From Mycobacterium simiae (lineage in GTDB: Bacteria > Actinomycetota > Actinomycetes > Mycobacteriales > Mycobacteriaceae), in the NCBI RefSeq assembly GCF_010727605.1, contig NZ_AP022568.1:5642001-5706000 (forward strand): 64,000 nucleotides of DNA, given 5' to 3'. The translations under genes were made by a program, and so were the position numbers. The notes below the pieces were generated by a model, which was not told the origin of the DNA, did no database searches, and saw nothing but the letters and a program-made list of their open reading frames with translations. Position 1 is the stretch's first letter. The number at the start of each line of letters is the position of its first letter. This document shows, piece by piece, positions 723 to 42,978 of this stretch.

Positions 723-1496
723 TCAGGTAAGCACATCAGGATCCGCTTTGATGGTCATCCGCGCCGCGCCGGCCCAATACACGCCCGCGGCCCGTTCGAT
801 CAGCGATCGCTGCATGCCCACCATGTCGGACCAGTTCATCTGCAGGGGTTCCTGGCCGGTGAGCATGACGTCGTAGGCCAGCTTGCACACCCGTTCTATC
901 GACGCCGCTCGGTATACCGCCTCCGCCAGATTCCGGCCGGTAGCGATGACGCCGTGGTTGGCCAAAACGGTCAAATTGGCATTGCCGATCCGTGCCGCGA
1001 GATCCGCCGCGCGCGACGGGCTATCGACCTCGCCGTCGTAGGTGTCGACCAGACACAAATCGTCGAGGAACAGCGAACCGGTCTGATGCACCAGTTCGGG
1101 CAGCCTGCCCAACGCGGACAGCACGCAGACCCAATAGGGGTGGTTGTGGATGACCACCCGCGCATCCTCACGCACCCGGTGTAGCTCGGTGTGGATGTGA
1201 ATCGCCGGAGTGACGTCCCACCGGCCGCGGACAAGCCGCGCGTCGCCATCCACCACGCAGATGTCGGACGCCGTGAGCTCCTGCCACCACAGGCCCCACG
1301 GGTTGACCAACATGTCGGTTTGTCCGTCGAGCTGCCAGGTGATGTGTCCGGCCATGTTCTCGGCGAACCCGGTGCCGGCCAGATGGCGAAAGGCGATCGC
1401 CAGCGCCTGTTCATGAGTCAGCTCGACACCGATCGGCGGCACCACGGACGGCGCCCACACTTGCAGACCACCCCGACGGGGACTAGGCGTGTTCAT
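723..1496 (-). CDS. Class II aldolase/adducin-family protein
   Basis: 257 residues, a normal length for the family. The fold is recognisable from AGHITW near residue 49, the zinc-ligand run HIHTELH and IHNHPYW near residues 100-120, and a third histidine in LANHGVIATG. Family members are zinc-dependent aldolases or decarboxylases acting on hydroxy-keto acids or sugar phosphates. The start codon lies inside the end of the upstream CoA ligase (14 nt overlap with 1483), indicating translational coupling. With the ligase and the amidohydrolase it suggests breakdown of a CoA-activated acid, but the substrate cannot be inferred. Confidence 0.9.
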   Translation of the reverse strand: MNTPSPRRGGLQVWAPSVVPPIGVELTHEQALAIAFRHLAGTGFAENMAGHITWQLDGQTDMLVNPWGLWWQELTASDICVVDGDARLVRGRWDVTPAIHIHTELHRVREDARVVIHNHPYWVCVLSALGRLPELVHQTGSLFLDDLCLVDTYDGEVDSPSRAADLAARIGNANLTVLANHGVIATGRNLAEAVYRAASIERVCKLAYDVMLTGQEPLQMNWSDMVGMQRSLIERAAGVYWAGAARMTIKADPDVLT

Positions 1497-3105
1497 GGTC
1501 GGCCTCCATCCTTGCTCGAATATCTTGGCGCAGTTCGCCTTTGGCGATCTTGCCGCCGGATGACCGGGGTAGTTCGTCCACCACGATGAGACGTTCGGGC
1601 AGCAGTTCCTTGGAGACGCCCAGCATCAGCAGGTGGTCGACGAGTTCGCGCAAGTCGACGCTCGCCGAGTCGACGAGTTCGGCATACAGGCAAACTCGTT
1701 CACCGAACACCGGGTCGGGCATTGCCACCGCCGCGGCCAGCGCGATCGCGGGGTGGGTCAGCGCGGCGTCCTCCACCTGCGCGGCACTGATGTTCTTGCC
1801 CCCACGCAGGATGAAGTCGGACGTCCGGCCGGTGACCGTGAGGTATCCGTCGGCGTCGAGCTCGCAGACATCGCCCATCAACATCCATCCGTCGGGGGTG
1901 AAGAGCTTGTCGTGGTCGGTACCGCCAAGATAGCCGAGGCTCGTCGCCGGTCCCCGGCAGGCAGGCTGGCCACGGCCCGTCGCGGTGACATCGCGGTCGC
2001 CGTCGAAGAGCCGGACCGACATCTCGGGAACGATCCGGCCGGCGGTGCGCAGTCTGCGGTCCCGCGAGTCGTCGACCGTGGTCGCGCTGAGCAAGCCGGT
2101 CTCATTTGAGCCGTAGAACTGCAGGATCTTCGCCCCGGTGCGTTCTTCGAACTCCGCGGCTGGCCGGTACGGTATGGCTTCGCCCCCGGTGAACACCACC
2201 CGCAACGAACTCAGGTTCGTCTCCCGGAACGCCGGCTCAGCCAGCAACATGGTCAACTGGGAACTGACGCAACACAATACGGTCACGTGGTGTCGGGCTA
2301 TCGCCGCGCACGCCGCCTTGGCGGAGAAGCGCTGCAGGATTACCGTAGCGGCACCGAGGTAAATCGGGGTGGTGTGGCTGGTCCAAATTCCAAATCCGAA
2401 AGGCATGGGAATGACGGGCAAGAACACATCGGCTGAGGTCAACAGTCCGTTCGCGACGGCCTTCTGGTGAAAGTAGTACCAACGGTTCTGGGTGTGCACG
2501 ACGCATTTCGGCAGACCCGTGGTCCCAGACGTGGAGTTGATCAGAAATACGTCGTCGGCGCCGAGTTGAACGTCGATTCCGATCGGTGTGGCCGCCGCTT
2601 CGACGTCCAGGCGCAGCGGTCCCGCGTGCCGGTGCAAAACCAGCACGGGCACCGCGGAGTCGGCCGCGGCCCGGGCCGCGGCCGCCCGATGCGTCTCATC
2701 GCTGATCAGAACCTTCGGCTCGGTATTGCCCAGCAGCGCGCCCACTTCCCGGACGCCGGCCCGCGCTCCGATGCCCACCACGACGGCGCCACAGCGCTCG
2801 ATTGCGACGAATAGGACATGGATGGCCGCGCAGTCGCCGTGCCACACCGCGACGCGCCCACCGCGACCTATACCGGCAGCCGACAGCTGTTCGGCCAAAG
2901 AGGTTGCTACCGCGTCGAATTCGCGCCATGTCAGGCAGGAGCCGGGCTCGTCGGAATAGGCGCGACACTCTGGTGATCGTTCGGCGTTGCGACGCACCGC
3001 ATCCGAGAGCGTCGATTCGGACCACCAGCCGGCCGCGCGGAATCGGGCCGGGTCCTCGTCGGTGAATGCCGGCGAGCCCATGGTGTTCAGCTCACCAGCG
3101 CTCAT
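1483..3105 (-). CDS. Class I adenylate-forming acyl/aryl-CoA synthetase
   Basis: An ATP-dependent acid:CoA ligase of about 540 residues, normal for the family. Visible motifs are the nucleotide loop STSGTTGLPK near residue 190, GSNETG, the hinge TGRTSDFILRGGKN near 435, and the C-terminal catalytic lysine in SSGGKIAKGE. I place the start at the ATG at 3105 rather than the in-frame TTG at 3111, because TATCAT sits exactly 6 nt before that ATG and there is no ribosome site, which suggests a leaderless mRNA. It heads a co-directional operon with the aldolase and amidohydrolase. It probably activates an aromatic or branched acid; the chain type cannot be read from the sequence. Confidence 0.9.
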   Translation of the reverse strand: MSAGELNTMGSPAFTDEDPARFRAAGWWSESTLSDAVRRNAERSPECRAYSDEPGSCLTWREFDAVATSLAEQLSAAGIGRGGRVAVWHGDCAAIHVLFVAIERCGAVVVGIGARAGVREVGALLGNTEPKVLISDETHRAAAARAAADSAVPVLVLHRHAGPLRLDVEAAATPIGIDVQLGADDVFLINSTSGTTGLPKCVVHTQNRWYYFHQKAVANGLLTSADVFLPVIPMPFGFGIWTSHTTPIYLGAATVILQRFSAKAACAAIARHHVTVLCCVSSQLTMLLAEPAFRETNLSSLRVVFTGGEAIPYRPAAEFEERTGAKILQFYGSNETGLLSATTVDDSRDRRLRTAGRIVPEMSVRLFDGDRDVTATGRGQPACRGPATSLGYLGGTDHDKLFTPDGWMLMGDVCELDADGYLTVTGRTSDFILRGGKNISAAQVEDAALTHPAIALAAAVAMPDPVFGERVCLYAELVDSASVDLRELVDHLLMLGVSKELLPERLIVVDELPRSSGGKIAKGELRQDIRARMEADHEHA

Positions 3106-3167
3106 TACCAAATGATAGGAAAACGGCGCGGAATTACGGTGACCGACGCTGCGGCTGCCCGACCCGG

Positions 3168-3479
3168 TTAGGGATTCTGCGGTCTGGCCGCCGGATGCTG
3201 CGACGTGGTCGCCGTGACCGGGTGGTGGTGCTGCATGGGCCGGGGCGGGTTGATCGGACCGCAGTTCAGACCGATGATGCAGCCGCCGCCGCCGCCGGCG
3301 GGTTCCACCAGTAGGGCGGCCCCGCCGTTGGTGTTGACCGAGGGCGTAGCCGCTGAGGCCACATTGCTTGTTGGCGCCGTGGCGCTGATCGGCGATTCGC
3401 CGGCACCGCTGATTGCCAGGGCCAGTACGGCCACCCCGCCACCCAGCGCTGCGAGCGTAGCGCCCGCTCTTTTCTTCAT
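3168..3479 (-). CDS. Small exported two-cysteine protein, tandem paralog 1
   Basis: 103 residues beginning MKKRAGATLAALGGG, then an alanine/leucine-rich hydrophobic stretch typical of a signal peptide. A low-complexity Ala/Thr/Ser region follows, then GGGGGCIIGLNCGPINPPRP near residues 63-82, then a His/Pro tail. The CIIGLNCG block recurs in the three following genes. The ATG is preceded by TAAACT with a 7-nt spacer and no Shine-Dalgarno, so translation is probably leaderless. I do not recognise a described family. Possibilities are a disulfide-bonded secreted peptide, a metal-binding peptide or a processed precursor. Function is unknown. Confidence 0.75.
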   Translation of the reverse strand: MKKRAGATLAALGGGVAVLALAISGAGESPISATAPTSNVASAATPSVNTNGGAALLVEPAGGGGGCIIGLNCGPINPPRPMQHHHPVTATTSQHPAARPQNP

Positions 3480-3486
3480 GTGCGCG

Positions 3487-3492
3487 AGTTTA
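3487..3492 (-). promoter_or_regulatory. -10 hexamer of leaderless promoter, paralog 1
   Basis: Read on the minus strand this is TAAACT, fitting TANNNT. Seven bases separate it from the ATG, which places the expected transcription start at or next to the first codon base. Confidence 0.6.
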
Positions 3493-3612
3493 CGTACTTG
3501 GTACACGGAATGTACTCAGCGGCAACGTGAATCGTCTGTGGGTCAGCTGTGATGACGCTTGGTGGTGTGCTCACGCGCGCCGGTGCCGACGTGTGAGCTA
3601 CCCACCGGGCGA

Positions 3613-3939
3613 CTAGGGACTGTGCGGAGTGGGCGCGGCGTTCTGCGGGCCGTGTCCAAGTGTCGGCGGACGGTGCGGCGGTGGCGGCTTCGGGGGGTTG
3701 ATCGGCCCGCAGTTCAAGCCGATGATGCAACCCGGGCCGCCGCCGACGGGGTGAACTGGCAGTGCACCGCCGTCGCCAGGGACCGAGGGCGACGAAATCG
3801 CACCGGTCGGAATAGCCGCCGCCGCGCTCAACGACGGCCGCTGGGCACCCCCTACGCCTCCGGCGGCGACGCCGACCATGACGAGCACGGCGAGGCCGCT
3901 GGACAATGCGGATGCGGATTTGCTAGCACGAATTCCCAC
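3613..3939 (-). CDS. Small exported two-cysteine protein, tandem paralog 2
   Basis: 108 residues, GTG start. The N-terminus MGIRASKSASALSSGLAVLV aligns by eye with paralogs 3 and 4 (basic residues, SKSA, then a hydrophobic helix), consistent with a signal peptide. The motif GCIIGLNCGPINPPKP lies near residues 70-86, followed by a Pro/His-rich tail. A perfect TACAAT lies 7 nt before the GTG, as in paralogs 3 and 4. The gene sits 134 nt upstream of paralog 1 on the same strand and has its own promoter, so the array need not be one operon. Function is unknown. Confidence 0.75.
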   Translation of the reverse strand: MGIRASKSASALSSGLAVLVMVGVAAGGVGGAQRPSLSAAAAIPTGAISSPSVPGDGGALPVHPVGGGPGCIIGLNCGPINPPKPPPPHRPPTLGHGPQNAAPTPHSP

Positions 3940-3946
3940 TGCGCCG

Positions 3947-3952
3947 ATTGTA
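3947..3952 (-). promoter_or_regulatory. -10 hexamer TACAAT, paralog 2
   Basis: Minus-strand TACAAT with a 7-nt spacer to the GTG start. The same hexamer and spacing occur at paralogs 3 and 4. Confidence 0.65.
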
Positions 3953-3980
3953 GTCCGCCCGCGCGGCGCGGCGGCGCTGA

Positions 3981-4304
3981 CTACATCTCGTGCGCCGGGA
4001 TCGGTCTGTTGGGCACCCGCGCGCCCTCCTGCTGCTGAGGTGCAAGACGCGGTGGGTTCTGGGGGGCCGGTGGTCGCGGCGGGTTGATGCGCCCGCAGTT
4101 CAGGCCGATGATGCAGCGGCTCGACCCCGCGGGTTCGACCGTCAACGCACTGTCGCCGCTCGCGGGCGCCGAGACCATCGTGGACCCAGCGGCGGCAACG
4201 TGGATCGGCAACGCAGCGGTAGGGCCAACGACTCCGGCGGCCAGGGCCAGCACGGCCATGCCGCCACCCAACACTGATGCTGATTTGCTGATGCGGTTTC
4301 TCAC
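3981..4304 (-). CDS. Small exported two-cysteine protein, tandem paralog 3
   Basis: 107 residues from a GTG at 4304. I chose this start because TACAAT lies 7 nt upstream and because it gives an N-terminus (VRNRISKSASVLGGGMAVLA) that lines up with the other copies. The open frame itself extends further upstream, but that part looks non-coding. A signal-peptide-like helix is followed by an Ala/Ser region and SSRCIIGLNCGRINPPRP near residues 61-78, where Arg replaces the Pro seen after NCG elsewhere. The tail is Pro/Gln-rich. No function is recognised. Confidence 0.75.
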   Translation of the reverse strand: MRNRISKSASVLGGGMAVLALAAGVVGPTAALPIHVAAAGSTMVSAPASGDSALTVEPAGSSRCIIGLNCGRINPPRPPAPQNPPRLAPQQQEGARVPNRPIPAHEM

Positions 4305-4311
4305 GAGCCCA

Positions 4312-4317
4312 ATTGTA
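4312..4317 (-). promoter_or_regulatory. -10 hexamer TACAAT, paralog 3
   Basis: Minus-strand TACAAT, 7 nt before the GTG start at 4304, with no Shine-Dalgarno between. Confidence 0.65.
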
Positions 4318-4353
4318 CTTAACCGCGGCGCGCGGGCCACGTGTCGCAGCCGA

Positions 4354-4707
4354 CTACAGCGCGTTTGCCGGGACCCGCTTATCGGTCGACGGCGCGGCCT
4401 GTGGCCGGGGGGCAAGACGCGGCGGATTGGTCACCGCCGGCGGCCGGGACGGCCTGATCGGGCCGCAGTTCAGGCCCACGATGCAGTTGTTGCCGCCCTC
4501 GGCGCGCAGCGATAGCGGTGCGCCCATCGGGTCGTTCAGCCAGCCGCAACAATCATCCGGCGAGGGCGCCGCAGGAACGATAGTCGGCGAAGGGGCGGTG
4601 GCGTAGCTTTGTGGAATCGTCACGCCGATGGCACCGCCGAGGCCGAGCGTCAGCACCGCCGCACATCCGGACGCCGCCCCAATCGACTTCACTGTGCAAT
4701 TACGCAC
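4354..4707 (-). CDS. Small exported two-cysteine protein, tandem paralog 4 (with extra CC pair)
   Basis: 117 residues from a GTG at 4707, chosen because TACAAT lies 7 nt upstream. An in-frame GTG at 4692 is an alternative. A hydrophobic N-terminal helix (AAVLTLGLGGAIGVTI) is followed by a spacer containing an adjacent cysteine pair (DDCCGW) absent from the other three copies. The shared block then appears as NNCIVGLNCGPIRPSRP near residues 74-90. The tail is Pro/Arg-rich. This is the most diverged copy and is the first of the array on the minus strand. The extra cysteines suggest a second disulfide or a metal site, which is inference. Confidence 0.72.
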   Translation of the reverse strand: MRNCTVKSIGAASGCAAVLTLGLGGAIGVTIPQSYATAPSPTIVPAAPSPDDCCGWLNDPMGAPLSLRAEGGNNCIVGLNCGPIRPSRPPAVTNPPRLAPRPQAAPSTDKRVPANAL

Positions 4708-4714
4708 GCATCGA

Positions 4715-4720
4715 ATTGTA
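4715..4720 (-). promoter_or_regulatory. -10 hexamer TACAAT, paralog 4
   Basis: Minus-strand TACAAT, 7 nt before the GTG start at 4707. Confidence 0.65.
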
Positions 4721-4857
4721 ATGGCCCGGCGCGCCCATGGGTAGGCCCGCAGCCTTGCTGGTTGGAAGCATCCCGGCCACTGCGGTGTTTGGTCGCAAAC
4801 ATGGTGATGGCGCGCCGCCCGGTGCACACGGGGGCGCCGGCAAAGGAGGACGATTTC

Positions 4858-5739
4858 ATGAGCCACGTTGAGGTAGCCCGGCTGCTCGCAAAGCACATGG
4901 CAGCTGGCCGTCGCTTCACCGCCGCCGCGATCTCGTCGTTCGTCCTGGACGATGGCCCCGCCGACGCAGCGCCGGTGGTGTGCGTACACGGAGTTCCGGC
5001 TTCAGCCTTCCTGTACCGCAAAGTGCTACCCGAATTGGCGTCCCGAGGTTTGCGCGGAATCGCCATCGACCTGCCCGGGCTCGGCCTGGCCGACCGTCCC
5101 GACGATGCCGACTACACCTGGACGGGGCTGGGCCGCTGGTTGCTGGCAGCGATCGACGAGTTGGAACTCGAACACTTCCACCTGGTGCTGCACGACATCG
5201 GCGGTCCCATCGGGTTCGAGGTGGCCAACGCGGTACCCGACCGGGTGCTGTCGATGACGCTGTTGAACACCATTATCGAGGTGGAGTCGTTCCATCGGCC
5301 ATGGCCGATGGAACCCTTCGCCCACCCGTTGCTCGGCGAGGCGTGGCTCGCGTCGCTGCGCATCCCGGGAACATTCCTGTCGATCATGCGACTGGTCGGC
5401 GTGAGTCGTCATGTCCCGGCCGCGGAGATCATGTGCTGGAAGCCGTTGCTGTTCGGCGACGACGGCGGGCGGGCGTTTCTGAACATCATGCGCGGCTTCG
5501 AGCTGACCGCCGCCAAACAACAGCTGTATCTGGACGTGCTGCGCGACAGCCGCTACCCGGTGCAGGTGGTCTGGGGAGCCCGCGACAAGATGCTGCCGTG
5601 GCACCGCTACGGCGTCCAGGCTCAGCGCGCCGCTGGCCTGCAAGATCCAATCACGCTGCCTGCCAAGCATTTTCTGCAAGAAGATTACCCGCGTGAGATC
5701 GCCGAGGCGGTGTACCGGCTGACCCAGCGGAAAGGTTAG
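4858..5739 (+). CDS. Alpha/beta hydrolase with Asp nucleophile (haloalkane dehalogenase / epoxide hydrolase type)
   Basis: 293 residues from an ATG preceded by AAAGGAGGA. The oxyanion segment VCVHGVPAS lies near residue 41. The nucleophile elbow LVLHDIGGPIGF (near residue 105-116) carries Asp instead of Ser, as in haloalkane dehalogenases and epoxide hydrolases. A C-terminal catalytic His is plausible in AKHFLQED, and the WGARDKMLP segment is the usual strand 6-7 region. Such enzymes hydrolyse carbon-halogen bonds or epoxides through an ester intermediate in the cytoplasm. The fold is secure; dehalogenase versus epoxide hydrolase is not decided. Confidence 0.88.
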   Translation: MSHVEVARLLAKHMAAGRRFTAAAISSFVLDDGPADAAPVVCVHGVPASAFLYRKVLPELASRGLRGIAIDLPGLGLADRPDDADYTWTGLGRWLLAAIDELELEHFHLVLHDIGGPIGFEVANAVPDRVLSMTLLNTIIEVESFHRPWPMEPFAHPLLGEAWLASLRIPGTFLSIMRLVGVSRHVPAAEIMCWKPLLFGDDGGRAFLNIMRGFELTAAKQQLYLDVLRDSRYPVQVVWGARDKMLPWHRYGVQAQRAAGLQDPITLPAKHFLQEDYPREIAEAVYRLTQRKG

Positions 5740-8659: not shown

Positions 8660-11341
8660 TCAGCGTCCGCCTTTGAGGCGAATCTTCCAGCGCACAAAGG
8701 TCAAGTAGGCGATGCAGAGCACGATCAGCATGCTCGTGTCCAACCACCACGCGCTGGCCGTATGCCGCCAGTGCGAGTCCTTCGGCGATACCGGACCCGG
8801 TACCAGCTGATTGAGATCGGCGGTAGACGCCGACGCTGCGAAGCCCCAGCGCGCGGGCGTGGCCCAGGACATCTGGTCGAGGCCGATGCGTCCGGTAACC
8901 GGAATCATCCCGCCGGAAAATACGAGCTGCGACATGACCGCCACCACTAGCAGCGGCATGATTTGGTCGTTGGATTTCGCGACGGATGACAACAGCAGCC
9001 CGAGCATCGCCGACGCGACGGTGGTCAGCGCGACGTCCACGAAGAGCTCCAGCCCGGGTCTGCCCAACACCACCGCACCATGGGTCGGTGCCCCCTTGCC
9101 GATCAGGGCGATGATGGTCACGATCGCGGACTGCGCGACCGCGAACACGGTGTAGACGCAGACCTTGGCCATTAGATAGGCGGTGGTGGACAGTCCGACC
9201 GCCTGCTCGCGGAGGAAGATCGCGCGTTCACCGATGAGGTCGCGGATGGTCAGCGCGGTTCCCATGAACACCGCCCCGACGTTGAGCAACACCAGGATCT
9301 GGCCCGGCTCGTTGGGCGCGGAGCCCATCGGATTCGGTGTCCCGAAGCCGACGTCACCGGGCACCGACATCGACAGCGAACCCATGATGAACGGCAGCAG
9401 CGCCAGGAAGACGAAGTAGCCGCGGTCGGAGACGATCAACCGGACCTGGCGGCGCGCGATCGTGGAGAACTGCCGCAGCAGGCTGGTGTGCGACGGGTCG
9501 CCGATCTCGGCCGGCTTCTCCGCCGGCGGCGGTGGCGGCGGCGGGCCGGTGCGCGCCAAATACTTGGCCTTGGCGCCGTCGGGATCGCCCGCAACCGAGC
9601 TGAAGATGTCGGCCCAGTTGGTCGTGCCCATCGCCGGGCCGATCTGGGCGGGCGGTCCGCAGAACGCGGTCTTGCCGCCGGGTGCCAGCAACAGCACCTG
9701 ATCGCAGACGTCCAGGTAGGTCAGCGAGTGCGTGACCACGAGAACCACGCGGCCGGCGTCGGCCAATTGCCGCAGCATGGTCATGACCTGCCGATCCAGG
9801 GCTGGGTCCAGCCCGGACGTCGGCTCGTCGAGAATCAGCAGCGATGGGCCGGTCAGTAGCTCCAGCGCCACCGACGCGCGCTTGCGCTGACCGCCGGAGA
9901 GCTTGTCGACCCGGGTGTGCAGATGCTGGGTCATCTCCAGCTCCTCGAGCACCCGGGCTACCACTTGCTCGCGGTCGGCCTTGGTGGTGTCCGGCGGCAG
10001 CCTCAGCTCGGCGGCATACCCCAGCGCCTGCTCGACAGTCAGCTGGCCGTGCACGACGTCGTCCTGCGGGACCATGCCGATCCTGCTGCGCAGGGAGGCG
10101 TATTCGGCGTGCACGTTGTGGCCTTCGAAGGTCACCGTTCCCTTGGTGGGATGGGTGTAGCCGGCGACCAGCCGGGCGAAGGTCGATTTCCCCGCGCCCG
10201 ACGGCCCGATGACCGCCGTGAGTGTCCCGGGGCTAGCGGCCAGGGAGATCTCGTCCAGCAGGGTCTTGTTGTTTTCGATCGTCCAGGTGACCCCGCGCAC
10301 GTCGAGGCCGCCGAGGCGGGTCTGGGCGGCAGTGTCGGCGTCGCGCCGGGCCAGTTTGCCGTCGGCGAAGACCAGGTCGATATTGCCGATCGTGACGACG
10401 TCGCCGTCCTTCAGCAGCGCGGAATCCACTCGGGCGCCGTTGACGAAGGTGCCGTTGATGCTGCGGTTGTCCTGAATCTCGGTGCCAGCGGGCGTCGGTA
10501 TCAGGGTCGCGTGGTGCCGGGAGGCCAGCACCTCCGGAATGACGATGTCGTTGTCGTTAGCGCGGCCGATCCTGATCGCCCCCGGGGCGTCGGCTCCCGA
10601 CCTGCCGGGCCGCAGGATTTTCATCATTGATGTCGCCAGGTTGGAGGCGTCACCGCCAACCCGGCCCGTCATCGTGGTCGGCGTATCGGCCGGCGGAGCC
10701 GGCGGCACCTGTGCGGGTTGTGCCCGGTAGATGTGCGGTGTCGATCCGGTAGCTGAACCGGCCGGATGGGTGCCGGTCGGGGAATGTGACAGCGGCCCGG
10801 ACGGATGGCTGGGGTGTGCACCGGTCGTGTGCGTCGGCACGGGGCCCGAAGAGGTGCCGGATTGGGGGCCGGCGGGCGGGTACGCCGGCGACGGCCGGGC
10901 AGGCGGCGGGGGCTGCGCCGCGCCCGGCCAGGCCGGTCCTGCCGGGGGCCGTCCCTGCCCCGGCCGCGAGTCGCTGGTGTGGTTGATCAGCGGGATCGAC
11001 GTTGTCGGGGGCGGTGTCCCCGCGGACCCCTGATGCCGGCCGACCTCGAAGGTCACGGCCGGCCCGTCGGGATTGCCGATGTTGATTCGCTGGCCGTCTT
11101 GGATCTCGACGGCCGGTACCCGGCGGTTGTTGACGTACAGACCGTTGAGGCTGCCGTTGTCGATGGCGATCCAGCGGCCCTGATCGAAGCGCACCAGCAG
11201 ATGTATCCGGGAAATCAATGGATGCGCGACGCGGACGTCGGCCCGCAGGTCACGCCCGATGACCACGTCGTTGCCGGGTGCGAAAGTCCGTTCGGATCCC
11301 TCGTACCGCACGGTCAGCACAGGTGGGGCTGGTCGGCTCAC
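8660..11341 (-). CDS. Double-FHA-domain ABC transporter, ATP-binding plus permease (Rv1747-like)
   Basis: 893 residues. The order is: FHA domain 1 (about residues 22-95, IGRDLRADVRVAHPLISRIH), a long Pro/Thr/Ser-rich linker (about 100-225), FHA domain 2 (about 248-325, IGRANDNDIVIPEVLASRHH), an ABC ATPase (Walker A GPSGAGKST, signature LSGGQRKR, Walker B LLILDEP), then an ABC-2 permease with about six helices. In M. tuberculosis the equivalent exporter is bound and phosphorylated by PknF through its FHA domains; the Thr-rich linker here could serve likewise. The start is a GTG with TACAGT 6 nt upstream, so leaderless. It is divergent from the small acidic protein at 11444. Confidence 0.93.
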   Translation of the reverse strand: MSRPAPPVLTVRYEGSERTFAPGNDVVIGRDLRADVRVAHPLISRIHLLVRFDQGRWIAIDNGSLNGLYVNNRRVPAVEIQDGQRINIGNPDGPAVTFEVGRHQGSAGTPPPTTSIPLINHTSDSRPGQGRPPAGPAWPGAAQPPPPARPSPAYPPAGPQSGTSSGPVPTHTTGAHPSHPSGPLSHSPTGTHPAGSATGSTPHIYRAQPAQVPPAPPADTPTTMTGRVGGDASNLATSMMKILRPGRSGADAPGAIRIGRANDNDIVIPEVLASRHHATLIPTPAGTEIQDNRSINGTFVNGARVDSALLKDGDVVTIGNIDLVFADGKLARRDADTAAQTRLGGLDVRGVTWTIENNKTLLDEISLAASPGTLTAVIGPSGAGKSTFARLVAGYTHPTKGTVTFEGHNVHAEYASLRSRIGMVPQDDVVHGQLTVEQALGYAAELRLPPDTTKADREQVVARVLEELEMTQHLHTRVDKLSGGQRKRASVALELLTGPSLLILDEPTSGLDPALDRQVMTMLRQLADAGRVVLVVTHSLTYLDVCDQVLLLAPGGKTAFCGPPAQIGPAMGTTNWADIFSSVAGDPDGAKAKYLARTGPPPPPPPAEKPAEIGDPSHTSLLRQFSTIARRQVRLIVSDRGYFVFLALLPFIMGSLSMSVPGDVGFGTPNPMGSAPNEPGQILVLLNVGAVFMGTALTIRDLIGERAIFLREQAVGLSTTAYLMAKVCVYTVFAVAQSAIVTIIALIGKGAPTHGAVVLGRPGLELFVDVALTTVASAMLGLLLSSVAKSNDQIMPLLVVAVMSQLVFSGGMIPVTGRIGLDQMSWATPARWGFAASASTADLNQLVPGPVSPKDSHWRHTASAWWLDTSMLIVLCIAYLTFVRWKIRLKGGR

Positions 11342-20371: not shown

Positions 20372-21846
20372 GTCCCGACAGCCGCCCTTTTTCCGGCGTA
20401 ACGCCGGCGCTGGCCTCATCGATCAGCACCTGGGACTACGAGGCCGACGTGGTGATCGCCGGTTACGGCGTCGCGGGCGCCGCGGCCGCGGTTGAGGCGG
20501 CGCGTAGCGGCGCGGACGTTTTGGTGGTCGAACGCACCGGCTCATGGGGTGGCGCGGCTTCGATGGCCGGCGGGTTCATCTACCTCGGCGGCGGCACTCC
20601 CCTGCAAAAGGCTTGCGGCTTCACCGATTCCGTCGACAACATGGCCGCGTTTCTCAATGTCGCGATGGGGCCGGGCGCCGACGAGAACCGGATCGCCGAT
20701 TACTGCGCCGGCAGCGTCGCACACTTCGAGTGGCTCGTCGGATGCGGCGTGCCGTTCAAGGCCGAGTTCTTTCCCGAACCCGGTTGGGAGCCGATGGGCG
20801 ACCAGGGCTTGATGTACAGCGGCGGGGAGAACTCCTATCCGTTCAACACCATCGCCACCCCCGCCCCGCGCGGCCATGTGCCACAGATGCAGAACAAGAA
20901 GCAGGGCGAAGCCAGCGCTGGGTACATGCTGATGAAGCCCTTGGTCGACACCGCCACCGCCGCAGGCGCCCGCGCGATCTATGACGTCCGGGTGCAGCGC
21001 CTGATCATCGAATCCGACGGCCGGGTCGCCGGCATCTGCGCCCGCCGGTACGGCTCCGAACTCGCGATTCGGGCGCGCACCGGCGTGGTGCTGGCCACCG
21101 GGAGCTTCGCCTACAACGACTCGATGGTGGCACGTTACGCCCCGCGCATCGCCGGGCGGCCGGCCGCCTCCATCGAGCAACACGACGGCCAGGCGATCCG
21201 GATGGCCCAAGCCCTGGGCGCCGATCTGGCCCACATGGACGCCACCGAAGTCGCGATCTTCATCGATCCCCAGCAGCTGGTGCGCGGCATTCTCGTCAAC
21301 GGCCGCGGTCAACGCTACGTCGCCGAAGACACCTACCCCGGGCGCATCGGGCAGCTCACCCTGTACCACCAGGACAACGTCGCTTACCTAATCATCGACA
21401 GCGACGCCCAGGAAGAGGCGATGGCATCGTGGTCGCCGAAGCTCATGCTGCGGCAGCCGACCTGGGTGGCCGACACCGTGGCCGATCTGGAAGCCGACAT
21501 GGGGCTGGCGCCGGGTTCGCTGCAGGCGACCGTGGCGGCCTTCAACGAGGGCGCCGCCCACGGTGAGGATCCCCTGTTGCATAAGAAGCCGGAGTGGATC
21601 AGGCCGATCGGTACCCCGGTCGGCGCGATCGACCTGCGCGACAACACCGGCGGGTTCACCCTGGGTGGATTGGCCACCACGCTCGACGCCGAGGTGCTCC
21701 ATGTCAGCGGTGACCCGATTCCGGGACTGTTCGCCGCGGGCCGCTCGACGGCCGGGCTGGCGGCCTGGGGGTACGCCAGCGGGGTCTCGCTCGGTGACGG
21801 CAGCTTTTACGGTCGCCGCGCCGGGCGGTCGGCCACCAAGGGTTGA
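20368..21846 (+). CDS. FAD-dependent dehydrogenase, 3-ketosteroid delta-1-dehydrogenase / fumarate-reductase-like
   Basis: 492 residues. The N-terminal dinucleotide loop is DVVIAGYGVAGAAAAVEAAR near residue 28-47, with ERTGSWGG after it. The C-terminal segment GLFAAGRSTAGLAAWGYASG binds FAD. The overall plan matches KstD and related flavin dehydrogenases. The ATG overlaps the stop of the HsaC-like gene (ATGA), so it is in the same operon. KstD enzymes introduce the C1-C2 double bond in the steroid A ring before ring opening. Whether the substrate is a steroid is inference from the neighbours. Confidence 0.85.
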   Translation: MSPDSRPFSGVTPALASSISTWDYEADVVIAGYGVAGAAAAVEAARSGADVLVVERTGSWGGAASMAGGFIYLGGGTPLQKACGFTDSVDNMAAFLNVAMGPGADENRIADYCAGSVAHFEWLVGCGVPFKAEFFPEPGWEPMGDQGLMYSGGENSYPFNTIATPAPRGHVPQMQNKKQGEASAGYMLMKPLVDTATAAGARAIYDVRVQRLIIESDGRVAGICARRYGSELAIRARTGVVLATGSFAYNDSMVARYAPRIAGRPAASIEQHDGQAIRMAQALGADLAHMDATEVAIFIDPQQLVRGILVNGRGQRYVAEDTYPGRIGQLTLYHQDNVAYLIIDSDAQEEAMASWSPKLMLRQPTWVADTVADLEADMGLAPGSLQATVAAFNEGAAHGEDPLLHKKPEWIRPIGTPVGAIDLRDNTGGFTLGGLATTLDAEVLHVSGDPIPGLFAAGRSTAGLAAWGYASGVSLGDGSFYGRRAGRSATKG

Positions 21847-21869
21847 CGTACACCGAACACCGGATGCGC

Positions 21870-22139
21870 CTATCGCTCGTCGACGATGGCCAGCTCCCCA
21901 CGCCGCACCGCCTCGAGGATCGATTCGCGCAGCGCCGAACACAGTAGGAACACACCGCGATTCGCGTGCGGAGCGACCTGGCGGTCGGCCACGCGTTCGG
22001 CGCACCGCGTGGTCGCGTCGGCGGTCCACTGCACGCTGGTTTGATTCCAGGTGCTCTTGCGGACCAGCACCCGAGCGGCACAGCTACCGCACGTCACCGG
22101 CGCCATCGGCATCTCGTCGAGCCGATTGTCCGTTCTCAT
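21870..22139 (-). CDS. Small CGSC-motif protein coupled to the Rieske oxygenase
   Basis: 89 residues with cysteines at 17 and 20 (TCGSC), about 46 and about 67. Four cysteines with a C-x2-C pair suggest a zinc ribbon or a metal-binding role; there are too few in ferredoxin spacing to call a ferredoxin. The ATG overlaps the stop of the Rieske gene (ATGA on the minus strand), so it is translated with it. I do not recognise the family. It could assist or stabilise the oxygenase; that is inference from coupling only. Confidence 0.68.
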   Translation of the reverse strand: MRTDNRLDEMPMAPVTCGSCAARVLVRKSTWNQTSVQWTADATTRCAERVADRQVAPHANRGVFLLCSALRESILEAVRRGELAIVDER

Positions 22140-30761: not shown

Positions 30762-31889
30762 ATGGCGGGGCGCAAGCGCGTTGTGGTCGCCGGTCTGGGC
30801 GATGTTGGCCTGCTGACCGCGATCCGGTTGGCAAAGCATGCCGACGTCGTGGGAATCTCCGTCAAGGACGCGTTGGTCAGCGGCCAGGAGCTCGGTGTCC
30901 GGCTGTCCCGCCCCGGCGACTGGGCCCGTGACTACTGGATTCCGTTTGACCGATTCCGCGGTCTGGACCGGGTGCGCACGGTGCAGGCCGAGCTGACTGG
31001 CGTGGACTTGGCCGACCGCACCGTGTTCGCTCGAGGCAGCGACGGCGCCGCGATCACCGAAGAATTCGACGCGCTGGTGATCTCGACCGGTGTAACAAAC
31101 GGCTTCTGGCGTCAACCCATCATGCAGTCGGGCGCCGAGATCGCTGCGGACTTGCACGCCACACACCAGCGCCTGGCCGCCGCCGAGTCGATCATCGTCA
31201 TCGGCGGCGGTGCGGCCGCGGTCAGCAGCGCCGTCAACCTGGCCACCACCTGGCCGAACAAGCGAATTGACCTCTATTTTCCGGGACCGGACGCGTTGGC
31301 CGGATATCACCCGCGGATTTGGAAACGAATCCGCGGCCGGCTCGGCGAGCTGAGCGTAGGGGTACACCCGGGGCACCGCGCGGTCATCTCGAACGGGTCC
31401 GGGGACACACGCATCACGAGCGAACCTGTTCGATGGAGCACCGGACAACCACCGGCCGCCGCGGAGGCCGTGCTGTGGGCGGTGGGCCGGGTGCGGCCGA
31501 ACACCGACTGGCTACCACCCGACATTCTCGACGCGCGGGGCTTCGTTCGTGTGACGCCGGAGCTGGAAGTGCCGGGCCTTCGCGGTGTGTTCGCCGTGGG
31601 TGATGTCGCGGCCAGCGATCCGCATCGCAGCTCGGCACGCAATCGCGGAGATTCGCTGGTCGCCCACAACATCCGCGCCGAATTCACCGGCCGCCGCCTA
31701 CGCTGCTACCGGACCCCCGGCCGGCGGTGGGGCTCGTTGCTGGGCATTCAGGCTGATGGGCTGGAGGTGTTTCTGCCCAGCGGTCACGCGTTGCGGATCC
31801 CGGCCTGGCCGGTTCAGCGTATCGTGATGCCCGGCTTCGTCCGGTGCGGCATGTACCGCGGGGTCCGGCCAAACGATCCGCTTCGATAA
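30762..31889 (+). CDS. FAD/NAD(P)-dependent oxidoreductase (type II NADH dehydrogenase / AIF-like)
   Basis: 375 residues from the ATG at 30762, preceded by AGGGG. The FAD loop VVVAGLGDVGLLTA, a second dinucleotide loop VIGGGAAAVSSAVNLA near residue 147, and the C-terminal FAD site GVFAVGDVAASD are all present. Two-dinucleotide-fold flavoprotein with no membrane segment. It may pass electrons from NAD(P)H to a quinone or protein partner. A KstR-like box upstream suggests control with steroid catabolism, which is inference. Confidence 0.83.
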   Translation: MAGRKRVVVAGLGDVGLLTAIRLAKHADVVGISVKDALVSGQELGVRLSRPGDWARDYWIPFDRFRGLDRVRTVQAELTGVDLADRTVFARGSDGAAITEEFDALVISTGVTNGFWRQPIMQSGAEIAADLHATHQRLAAAESIIVIGGGAAAVSSAVNLATTWPNKRIDLYFPGPDALAGYHPRIWKRIRGRLGELSVGVHPGHRAVISNGSGDTRITSEPVRWSTGQPPAAAEAVLWAVGRVRPNTDWLPPDILDARGFVRVTPELEVPGLRGVFAVGDVAASDPHRSSARNRGDSLVAHNIRAEFTGRRLRCYRTPGRRWGSLLGIQADGLEVFLPSGHALRIPAWPVQRIVMPGFVRCGMYRGVRPNDPLR

Positions 31890-42130: not shown

Positions 42131-42219
42131 CCTCCCATTGGCTGCCGGAGCCGACCAGGGTGATGGGCGAATCGTTATGGACTCGTTGACCGTGTCGTTG
42201 TCCGCGGGTTCGCGGGTGG

Positions 42220-42978
42220 TCAGTCCTTTTCCAGGGTCACCTGGGTGACATCAATCTGGCCGGTGCGGAACGCGTTGGCCCGACCGGTCAGGAAGTGCAG
42301 GTATCGCTGGTAGACCTCTTCGGAATGCCTGGCGATGGCCTCGTCCTTGTGCGCCTCCAACGCCTCAGTCCACAGGTCGAGCGTCTTGGCGTAATGCGGC
42401 TGCAGCGTCTCGCGCAGGGTCAGCGTGAAGCCCGCTTGCTCCGCGCGCTGTTCGACCGGAGCCGGGGTCGGCACTTCGGTGATGGTGTGCAGAAACATGA
42501 CGCCGTCGTCGGGTAGCACGGCGTAGGCCATTTCGAAGAGGTCGTCGTAACGCCCGTGCTCGAACGCCCCGATCGAGACGATTCGGTCGACGGGCTCGGC
42601 GAACTCTTCCCAGCCCTGCAGCATCACCCACTTGCTGCGCTGGGTGTCCATCTCGTCGAATGACTGCTGTACGTAAGCGGCCTGGTCGCTGGACGATGTC
42701 AGCCCCACCACGTTGACGTCGTATTTCTCGATCGCGCGCCGCATCGTGGTCCCCCAGCCGCAGTCGACGTCGAGCAGCGTCATGCCCGGCTGTAGATCCA
42801 GCGACGCCAGCGCCAAATCGATCTTGGCGAGTTGGGCTTCTTCCAGCGTCATGTCGTCGCGCTCGAAATATGCGCAACTGTAAATTTGAGTCCGATCGAG
42901 GAACAACCGGAAGAAATCGTCGGACAGGTCGTAACGAACTTGCGCGTCGTCAACCCTCGGAATCATCTCCTGAGTCAT
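42220..42978 (-). CDS. Divergent mycolic-acid cyclopropane-synthase/methyltransferase paralog (internally shortened)
   Basis: 252 residues against about 287-300 in CmaA/MmaA/PcaA. AAAGG precedes the ATG at 42978. Family parts are clear: VRYDLSDDFFRLFLD, IYSCAYFERDDMTLEEAQ, VNVVGLT, GFTLTLRETLQPHYAKTL, and SEEVYQRYLHFLTG. Motif I is LLDVDCGWG, where the first glycine of DxGxGxG is Asp72. The segment corresponding to FGHERYD is shortened to HGRYD, and about 30-40 residues between LHTIT and the GFTLT strand are missing. SAM-dependent modification of mycolates is the family role; activity here is doubtful. Confidence 0.85.
   Translation of the reverse strand: MTQEMIPRVDDAQVRYDLSDDFFRLFLDRTQIYSCAYFERDDMTLEEAQLAKIDLALASLDLQPGMTLLDVDCGWGTTMRRAIEKYDVNVVGLTSSSDQAAYVQQSFDEMDTQRSKWVMLQGWEEFAEPVDRIVSIGAFEHGRYDDLFEMAYAVLPDDGVMFLHTITEVPTPAPVEQRAEQAGFTLTLRETLQPHYAKTLDLWTEALEAHKDEAIARHSEEVYQRYLHFLTGRANAFRTGQIDVTQVTLEKD

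Follow-up and report, generated by a model that had tools for sequence, protein, structure and literature searches.

The 64-kb window analysed here (64,000 nucleotides of Mycobacterium simiae) carries near one end an array, probably chromosomal, of four consecutive minus-strand genes for small, probably exported proteins that share the block C-[IV]-[IV]-G-L-N-C-G-x-I (Table 1). Our favoured reading, to which we give a little more than even credence, is that they are carriers of low complexity, exported by Sec, on which a loop oxidised by DsbA/VKOR is presented as a non-enzymatic ligand, with export, oxidation and partner all inferred. Each gene would be transcribed from its own promoter, the -10 box of which lies 7 nucleotides (nt) before the start, so yielding a leaderless mRNA; an N-terminal signal sequence, judged from composition, would export the product; and the mature chain would be of low complexity, rich in Pro, Ala, Gly and Ser and with no predicted fold. 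Outside the membrane DsbA/VKOR would oxidise C-[IV]-[IV]-G-L-N-C to a seven-residue disulfide loop, as the pairwise gain and loss of cysteines suggests, and members with four cysteines would have another pair, either downstream of the loop (CGC...C) or upstream (CC...). Such a loop, borne by a flexible stalk and tail, would act in recognition and not in catalysis, with a partner in the envelope or the medium, while tandem duplication and variable tails would allow diversification around it.

Open reading frames (ORFs) and alignment agree with the first-pass annotation, which had described a tandem family of four genes of 103 to 117 residues with a common two-cysteine block. The products of genes 2 to 4 are 36 to 48% identical to that of gene 1, and the block reads CIIGLNCG in three proteins and CIVGLNCG in one; its degenerate DNA pattern finds four matches in the window at up to two mismatches, against 0.01 expected by shuffling. 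The loop is CIIGLNC in genes 1, 2 and 3 (residues 67-73, 71-77 and 64-70, respectively) and CIVGLNC in gene 4 (residues 75-81, with two added mature cysteines as CC at residues 53-54), and five residues, not four as had been stated, separate its cysteines (C-x5-C). All four N-termini carry two to three positive charges followed by a 14-residue hydrophobic stretch (mean Kyte-Doolittle hydropathy 1.97-2.48), and it is by this charge and hydropathy that we consider the proteins probably exported, as the annotation had proposed. The window proteins have no lipobox cysteine at the signal end: genes 1 to 3 hold only the loop pair, and the cysteines at positions 4 and 15 of gene 4 precede its hydrophobic stretch. 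By eye, a lipobox-like site is present in some distant members (L118, L115). The low-complexity middle and Pro-rich tail noted earlier are borne out by the computed composition of both regions, which is rich in Pro, Ala and Gly; the tail of gene 1 holds four His (HHH).

The case for a closed loop comes from the way in which further cysteines are distributed over the family. We counted cysteines in 117 clusters formed at 80% identity from 166 sequences, upstream ones being included only if they lay at residue 39 or later and no more than 35 residues from the loop. Mature cysteines number two in 17 clusters, four in 99 and five in one (116 of 117 even), the five-cysteine cluster carrying an unusually long C-terminal extension (P0064); as the sequences were found via the loop, two cysteines are given by construction and only the added ones test parity. 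Where a cysteine stands within two residues after the loop (84 clusters), exactly one more follows in 83 and two more in one; where none does (33 clusters), none comes later in any of the 33. Two upstream cysteines occur only in clusters lacking a post-loop cysteine (16 of these 33). The classes are therefore a two-cysteine one (17 clusters), one with a post-loop pair (84) and one with a pre-loop pair (16), and the two ways of reaching four cysteines never mix. In the CGC...C class 83 clusters have exactly two post-loop cysteines, and in 79 of these the fourth cysteine comes 3 or 5 residues later; the pre-loop class has a CC pair in all four clusters printed. Genes 1 to 3 fall into the two-cysteine class and gene 4 into the upstream-CC class. 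Since the extra cysteines are gained and lost in pairs, as disulfides predict, the loop is probably closed by a disulfide bond, and a disulfide peptide is the best of the three roles suggested earlier. According to PMC12421883, DsbA-VKOR oxidises exported mycobacterial proteins, about 64% of which have an even number of cysteines.

A second regularity lies upstream of the genes, where each start is preceded by a hexamer of the form TANNNT (Table 1). PMC6448022 reports for M. smegmatis that ANNNT is found upstream of the start site in 79% of promoters (63% of those having TANNNT) and that leaderless transcripts amount to 24%. In the window TANNNT-N7-RTG occurs 15 times against a chance mean of 12.5, four of the 15 being the four gene starts. 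Upstream DNA was available for 91 distinct family genes, the window's four among them; with any in-frame candidate start allowed, the gap is 7 nt in 32 and 8 nt in 30, any other gap from 0 to 30 being found in at most 7 genes each; TANNNT lies at 6-8 nt in 66 of the 91, with a Shine-Dalgarno-like site in one of those 66. Because this spacing is found at all four starts in the window and in most genes of the family, genes 1 to 4 most likely form four leaderless transcription units. Homology and promoter position also favour the shorter starts of genes 3 and 4 over the mechanical ORFs of 144 residues (3981-4415, minus strand) and 211 residues (4354-4989, minus strand), so that automatic annotation may err here.

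The same four-gene array is intact in locus L121, which we take to be M. sherrisii and which is 85.7% identical to the window over 6.7 kb. Positional partners are 68-82% identical and the other three copies 50% or less, and this one-to-one correspondence implies that the duplications predate the split of the two lineages. The ratio of nonsynonymous to synonymous substitution rates (dN/dS) between them is 0.27, 0.31, 0.39 and 0.32 for genes 1 to 4. These values, the intact L121 array and the start-proximal promoters common to the family make it very improbable that the array is untranslated or decaying sequence, a reading that could appeal to disrupted copies in M. genavense. In that species (L027, L066, L069) both family copies at the ligase locus described below look frame-broken, which fits gene loss.

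The family extends well beyond M. simiae. Scanning one genome per species for the pattern yielded 49 stretches, of which 35 are mycobacterial and each hold a family ORF; none was seen in the remaining 14. With a 26-row profile, 92 of 396 genomes of the genus were matched at E<=1e-3, 86 of them at E 1e-12 or better as read from the table, with one to five matches per genome; scoring was limited to 12 candidates per genome, which makes the copy numbers minimum values. Tandem matches (two or more within 0.5 kb) were counted by eye in at least 18 of the 92. The '1 TAG' in many second-site matches, which at first sight suggests read-through, is in the second-site loci fetched an ordinary stop that the profile overruns. 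An order-wide sample yielded matches in 19 of 298 genomes: 10 strong, all already in the genus sample, and nine weak; the five weak loci that were read encode different proteins, not family members. Strong matches are confined to Mycobacterium in the genomes sampled. For the M. tuberculosis complex an exact motif scan of genome contigs listed no record, and the marker repeat used to recognise the complex was found in 0 of the 396 genus genomes.

At E<=1, 244 proteins matched in a search with 46 rows; among the 120 listed none has a Pfam domain, the named organisms are all Mycobacterium, and the homologues, in M. sherrisii, M. colombiense, M. nebraskense, M. simiae and others, are 'hypothetical protein' entries with neither function nor family name. 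Searches of Pfam and NCBIfam with the four proteins, of PHROGs and Pfam with 46 relatives, of PADLOC, and of NCBIfam with the sister class described below gave nothing near cut-off (best E across them 0.019, weak), and the best match in the PDB by sequence had an E of 0.79 (LpqE N-terminal region). A phage origin was rejected: none of the 11 stretches from a scan of viral contigs held, on reading, a family-like ORF, and one four-cysteine relative found no match among phages by tblastn. Our literature search found no description of the family (text matches to GLNCG were unrelated) and nothing relevant on small mycobacterial proteins that are secreted and have two cysteines or are rich in them; most subscription papers lay outside it, so absence is unproven. 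The family is thus undescribed and an orphan in the libraries searched, which agrees with the earlier statement that the block belongs to no described family.

A sister class of about 70 residues shares the signal-like N-terminus and the low-complexity stalk and ends on C-[IV]-x-G-[LA]-[DN]-C; in the loci listed its gene lies between those for isocitrate lyase and a luciferase-like monooxygenase. Aligned to the window family by hhalign it gives a probability of 98% and an E of 2.9e-13 over 69 columns, a link that may rest partly on similarity of the signal regions. Counts refer to 120 sequences listed of 186 found, in 63 clusters. Two mature cysteines and a terminal loop are present in 63 of 63 clusters, the last residue being Cys in 60 and one further Gly in 3, and 119 of the 120 proteins fit the end-loop pattern; its letters are a majority rule, as two clusters have Asp for the glycine at position 4, and a few differ at positions 5 and 6. 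Directly before the loop stands a conserved A-x-L-x-[GAS], found in 0 of 120 window-class proteins, and a lipobox-like [LVI][ASTVI][GAS] precedes the loop in 115 of 119 sister-class against 0 of 120 window-class proteins. Lipidation at this triplet is doubtful, because no long hydrophobic run is seen before it. Beside the sister class we observed a Gly-rich lipoprotein-like protein ending GCVGN[IV]CGG, with a six-residue Cys pair near its C-terminus, and L182 and L185 encode other lipoprotein-like proteins of mycobacteria that are similarly built and end in PPGAVCKEIVGNNC[IV]R (C-x7-C).

Structure prediction fits a chain without a globular fold. AlphaFold, given 62 rows, returned a mean predicted local distance difference test score (pLDDT) of 60, a predicted template modelling score of 0.21 and no secondary structure; by blocks of ten, pLDDT is 46-55 over the first 70 residues and 64 in the loop block, and it averages 81-87 in the Pro-rich tail (residues 81-108), again with no secondary structure assigned. 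Several points weigh against our favoured reading. Export is judged by composition only, and the expression, secretion and redox sides rest on sequence; 25 of the 91 family genes have no -10 box at 6-8 nt; the loop-based search itself fixed two cysteines per sequence; the sister class may owe part of its alignment to the signal; no partner gene co-occurs at every locus; and AlphaFold gives no fold, its tail values leaving disorder unproven and its loop block of 64 not giving the loop geometry.

The neighbours of the array bear on what the proteins might serve. The six scanned in the window comprise an AMP-ligase, a class II aldolase, an alpha/beta hydrolase, one protein without family, a TetR and an FHA-ABC transporter about 4 kb away. 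At many loci the family gene precedes, in the same orientation, genes for AMP-ligase, class II aldolase and amidohydrolase enzymes; of the 56 loci compared, and as far as their length allowed, 24 contain the ligase cluster, 17 the aldolase and 15 the amidohydrolase. No gene cluster is common to all 56. For the aldolase we typed the best 101 of 189 genomes that have one and tabulated 85 family genomes (G006, a genome with a strong family match, is missing from this tabulation, as are six whose matches are all weak, with E from 4e-5 to 9e-4). In 66 of the 101 the aldolase has a family gene no more than 4 kb away, and in 2 the family gene is found only elsewhere; the other 33 have no strong family match (G029 and G194 have weak ones), and in the 20 of these that were fetched no family-like ORF was seen in up to 900 bp before the ligase. 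Conversely, 66 of the 85 family genomes have a copy by the aldolase/AMP-ligase cluster, and 17 have no aldolase among the best 101, 12 of these having a more distant one among the 189. Other copies have as neighbours a gene for a beta-lactamase-family protein and carA or, in Mycolicibacter, glnD and amt, or lie elsewhere (carA, glnD and amt by sequence reading). Since the cluster occurs without the family and copies sit elsewhere, the family is not an obligate partner of any one pathway.

Among the arsenic, copper and cation-efflux genes of an M. lentiflavum plasmid there are three copies with the loop and a relative without cysteines; about 80 bp separate one copy from a downstream gene that bears the name peptidase. 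Plasmid carriage looks rare, because only one of four tblastn queries against plasmids, the M. lentiflavum copy, found a record, and a single one; window gene 2 and two relatives found none.

Table 1. Positions of the array, its putative promoters, its neighbours and related genes at other loci (coordinates of genes 1 to 4 include the stop codons).
Feature	Position	Strand	Remarks
Gene 1, probably exported two-cysteine loop protein	3168..3479	-	103 residues, ATG start
Gene 2, probably exported two-cysteine loop protein	3613..3939	-	108 residues, GTG start
Gene 3, probably exported two-cysteine loop protein	3981..4304	-	107 residues, GTG start
Gene 4, probably exported four-cysteine loop protein	4354..4707	-	117 residues, GTG start
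Putative -10 hexamer TAAACT	3487..3492	-	7 nt before gene 1 ATG
Putative -10 hexamer TACAAT	3947..3952	-	7 nt before gene 2 GTG
Putative -10 hexamer TACAAT	4312..4317	-	7 nt before gene 3 GTG
Putative -10 hexamer TACAAT	4715..4720	-	7 nt before gene 4 GTG
Enzyme of AMP-binding acyl-CoA ligase type	1483..3105	-	conserved codirectional neighbour; functional tie putative
Class II aldolase/adducin family enzyme	723..1496	-	conserved neighbour; functional tie putative
M. lentiflavum plasmid copies	L187 (NZ_CP092424.2 1-50000): 8731-9072, 21785-22087, 42134-42532; Cys-less 30824-31165		
Sister class	L188-L197 (e.g. L194:5282-5503)	- for L194	proteins P0121-P0240
Gly-rich lipoprotein-like neighbour of sister class	L188:5456-6001; L194:4889-5278; L195:5504-5860	+; -; +	

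An accessory role in the ligase/aldolase/amidohydrolase cluster, for example as an envelope component of that pathway, would account for the frequent proximity just described (66 of the best 101 aldolase genomes, 24 of 56 loci). We keep it as a rival only, because the cluster is often found without a family gene, and rate it quite unlikely: the 33 aldolase genomes without a strong family match, the 20 of them with no family-like ORF before the ligase and the 17 family genomes without a best-ranked aldolase speak against it, as does the ligase's own likely leaderless promoter. The ligase probably starts at ATG 3105, preceded at 6 nt by TATCAT (window 3105-3117, minus strand), and not at the mechanical TTG 3111. 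The proteins might instead be precursors of a released cyclic peptide (a signal, an antagonist or something akin to a ribosomally synthesised and post-translationally modified peptide, RiPP), the cut loop being a free seven-residue disulfide ring. A short conserved loop between low-complexity flanks would suit this, as would the plasmid copy upstream of the peptidase-named gene and the sister class, where the loop is the C-terminus and follows A-x-L-x-[GAS]. In the window proteins, however, 30-37 residues follow the loop and the sister box is missing, the six neighbours scanned include no maturase or protease family, as the first-pass annotation had remarked of modification enzymes and proteases, and no gene cluster is common to all loci. 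Nothing beside the array, where the adjacent genes encode the AMP-ligase, class II aldolase and alpha/beta hydrolase, supports its suggestion of a processed precursor, and we find release improbable.

Exported metal binders, with cysteines and tail His holding copper, zinc or a metalloid in the envelope, are likewise unlikely. At least one tail His is present in 81 of 84 CGC-class and 16 of 17 two-cysteine-class clusters, and the M. lentiflavum plasmid copies lie among metal genes. Against this, gene 3 has one His after the loop and gene 4 none, 15 of 16 upstream-cysteine-class clusters have no post-loop His, and no third ligand is conserved among the two-cysteine members (0-4 tail His); at chromosomal loci, which were not surveyed systematically, the genes recognised beside the family are not metal genes. 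Metal binding, which had also been proposed, finds no support as a general role. Returning to carriers that would present an oxidised loop, one may carry the thought further, as a long shot, to secreted disulfide-cyclised heptapeptides specific to mycobacteria, displayed on or released from disposable carriers for cell-cell or host recognition; two carrier classes would then share one pharmacophore, C-[IV]-x-G-[LA]-[ND]-C, and would owe their spread to tandem duplication and, in a single species, to a plasmid.

Among known systems, the mycobacterial DsbA-VKOR substrates resemble the window family in predicted export and an even number of mature cysteines; those validated in PMC12421883, LamA, PstP, LpqW and EmbB, are inner-membrane proteins or a lipoprotein, whereas the family consists of low-complexity chains of about 100 residues with one short conserved loop. 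With the leaderless small proteins of mycobacteria, as treated in PMC6448022 and works cited there, the window genes share a TANNNT close to an ATG or GTG and a small product, yet they form a family with a conserved product and not a transcript-defined class. The unnamed 'hypothetical protein' entries are direct homologues, and the sister class differs in its shorter chain, missing tail, C-terminal loop and pre-loop box.

Beyond the first-pass annotation, our analysis adds the leaderless promoter spacing, the conserved ligase locus, the four-cysteine variants and the sister class with its C-terminal loop. What emerges is an undescribed, repeatedly duplicated and probably exported family of slow-growing nontuberculous mycobacteria (the M. 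simiae complex, relatives of the M. avium complex, and Mycolicibacter), of which the seven-residue cysteine loop is a near-invariant and testable feature. Such a family would offer a compact, group-specific secreted marker and a clean model substrate for work on the disulfide machinery of mycobacteria, and would open the way to finding the binding target of the loop.

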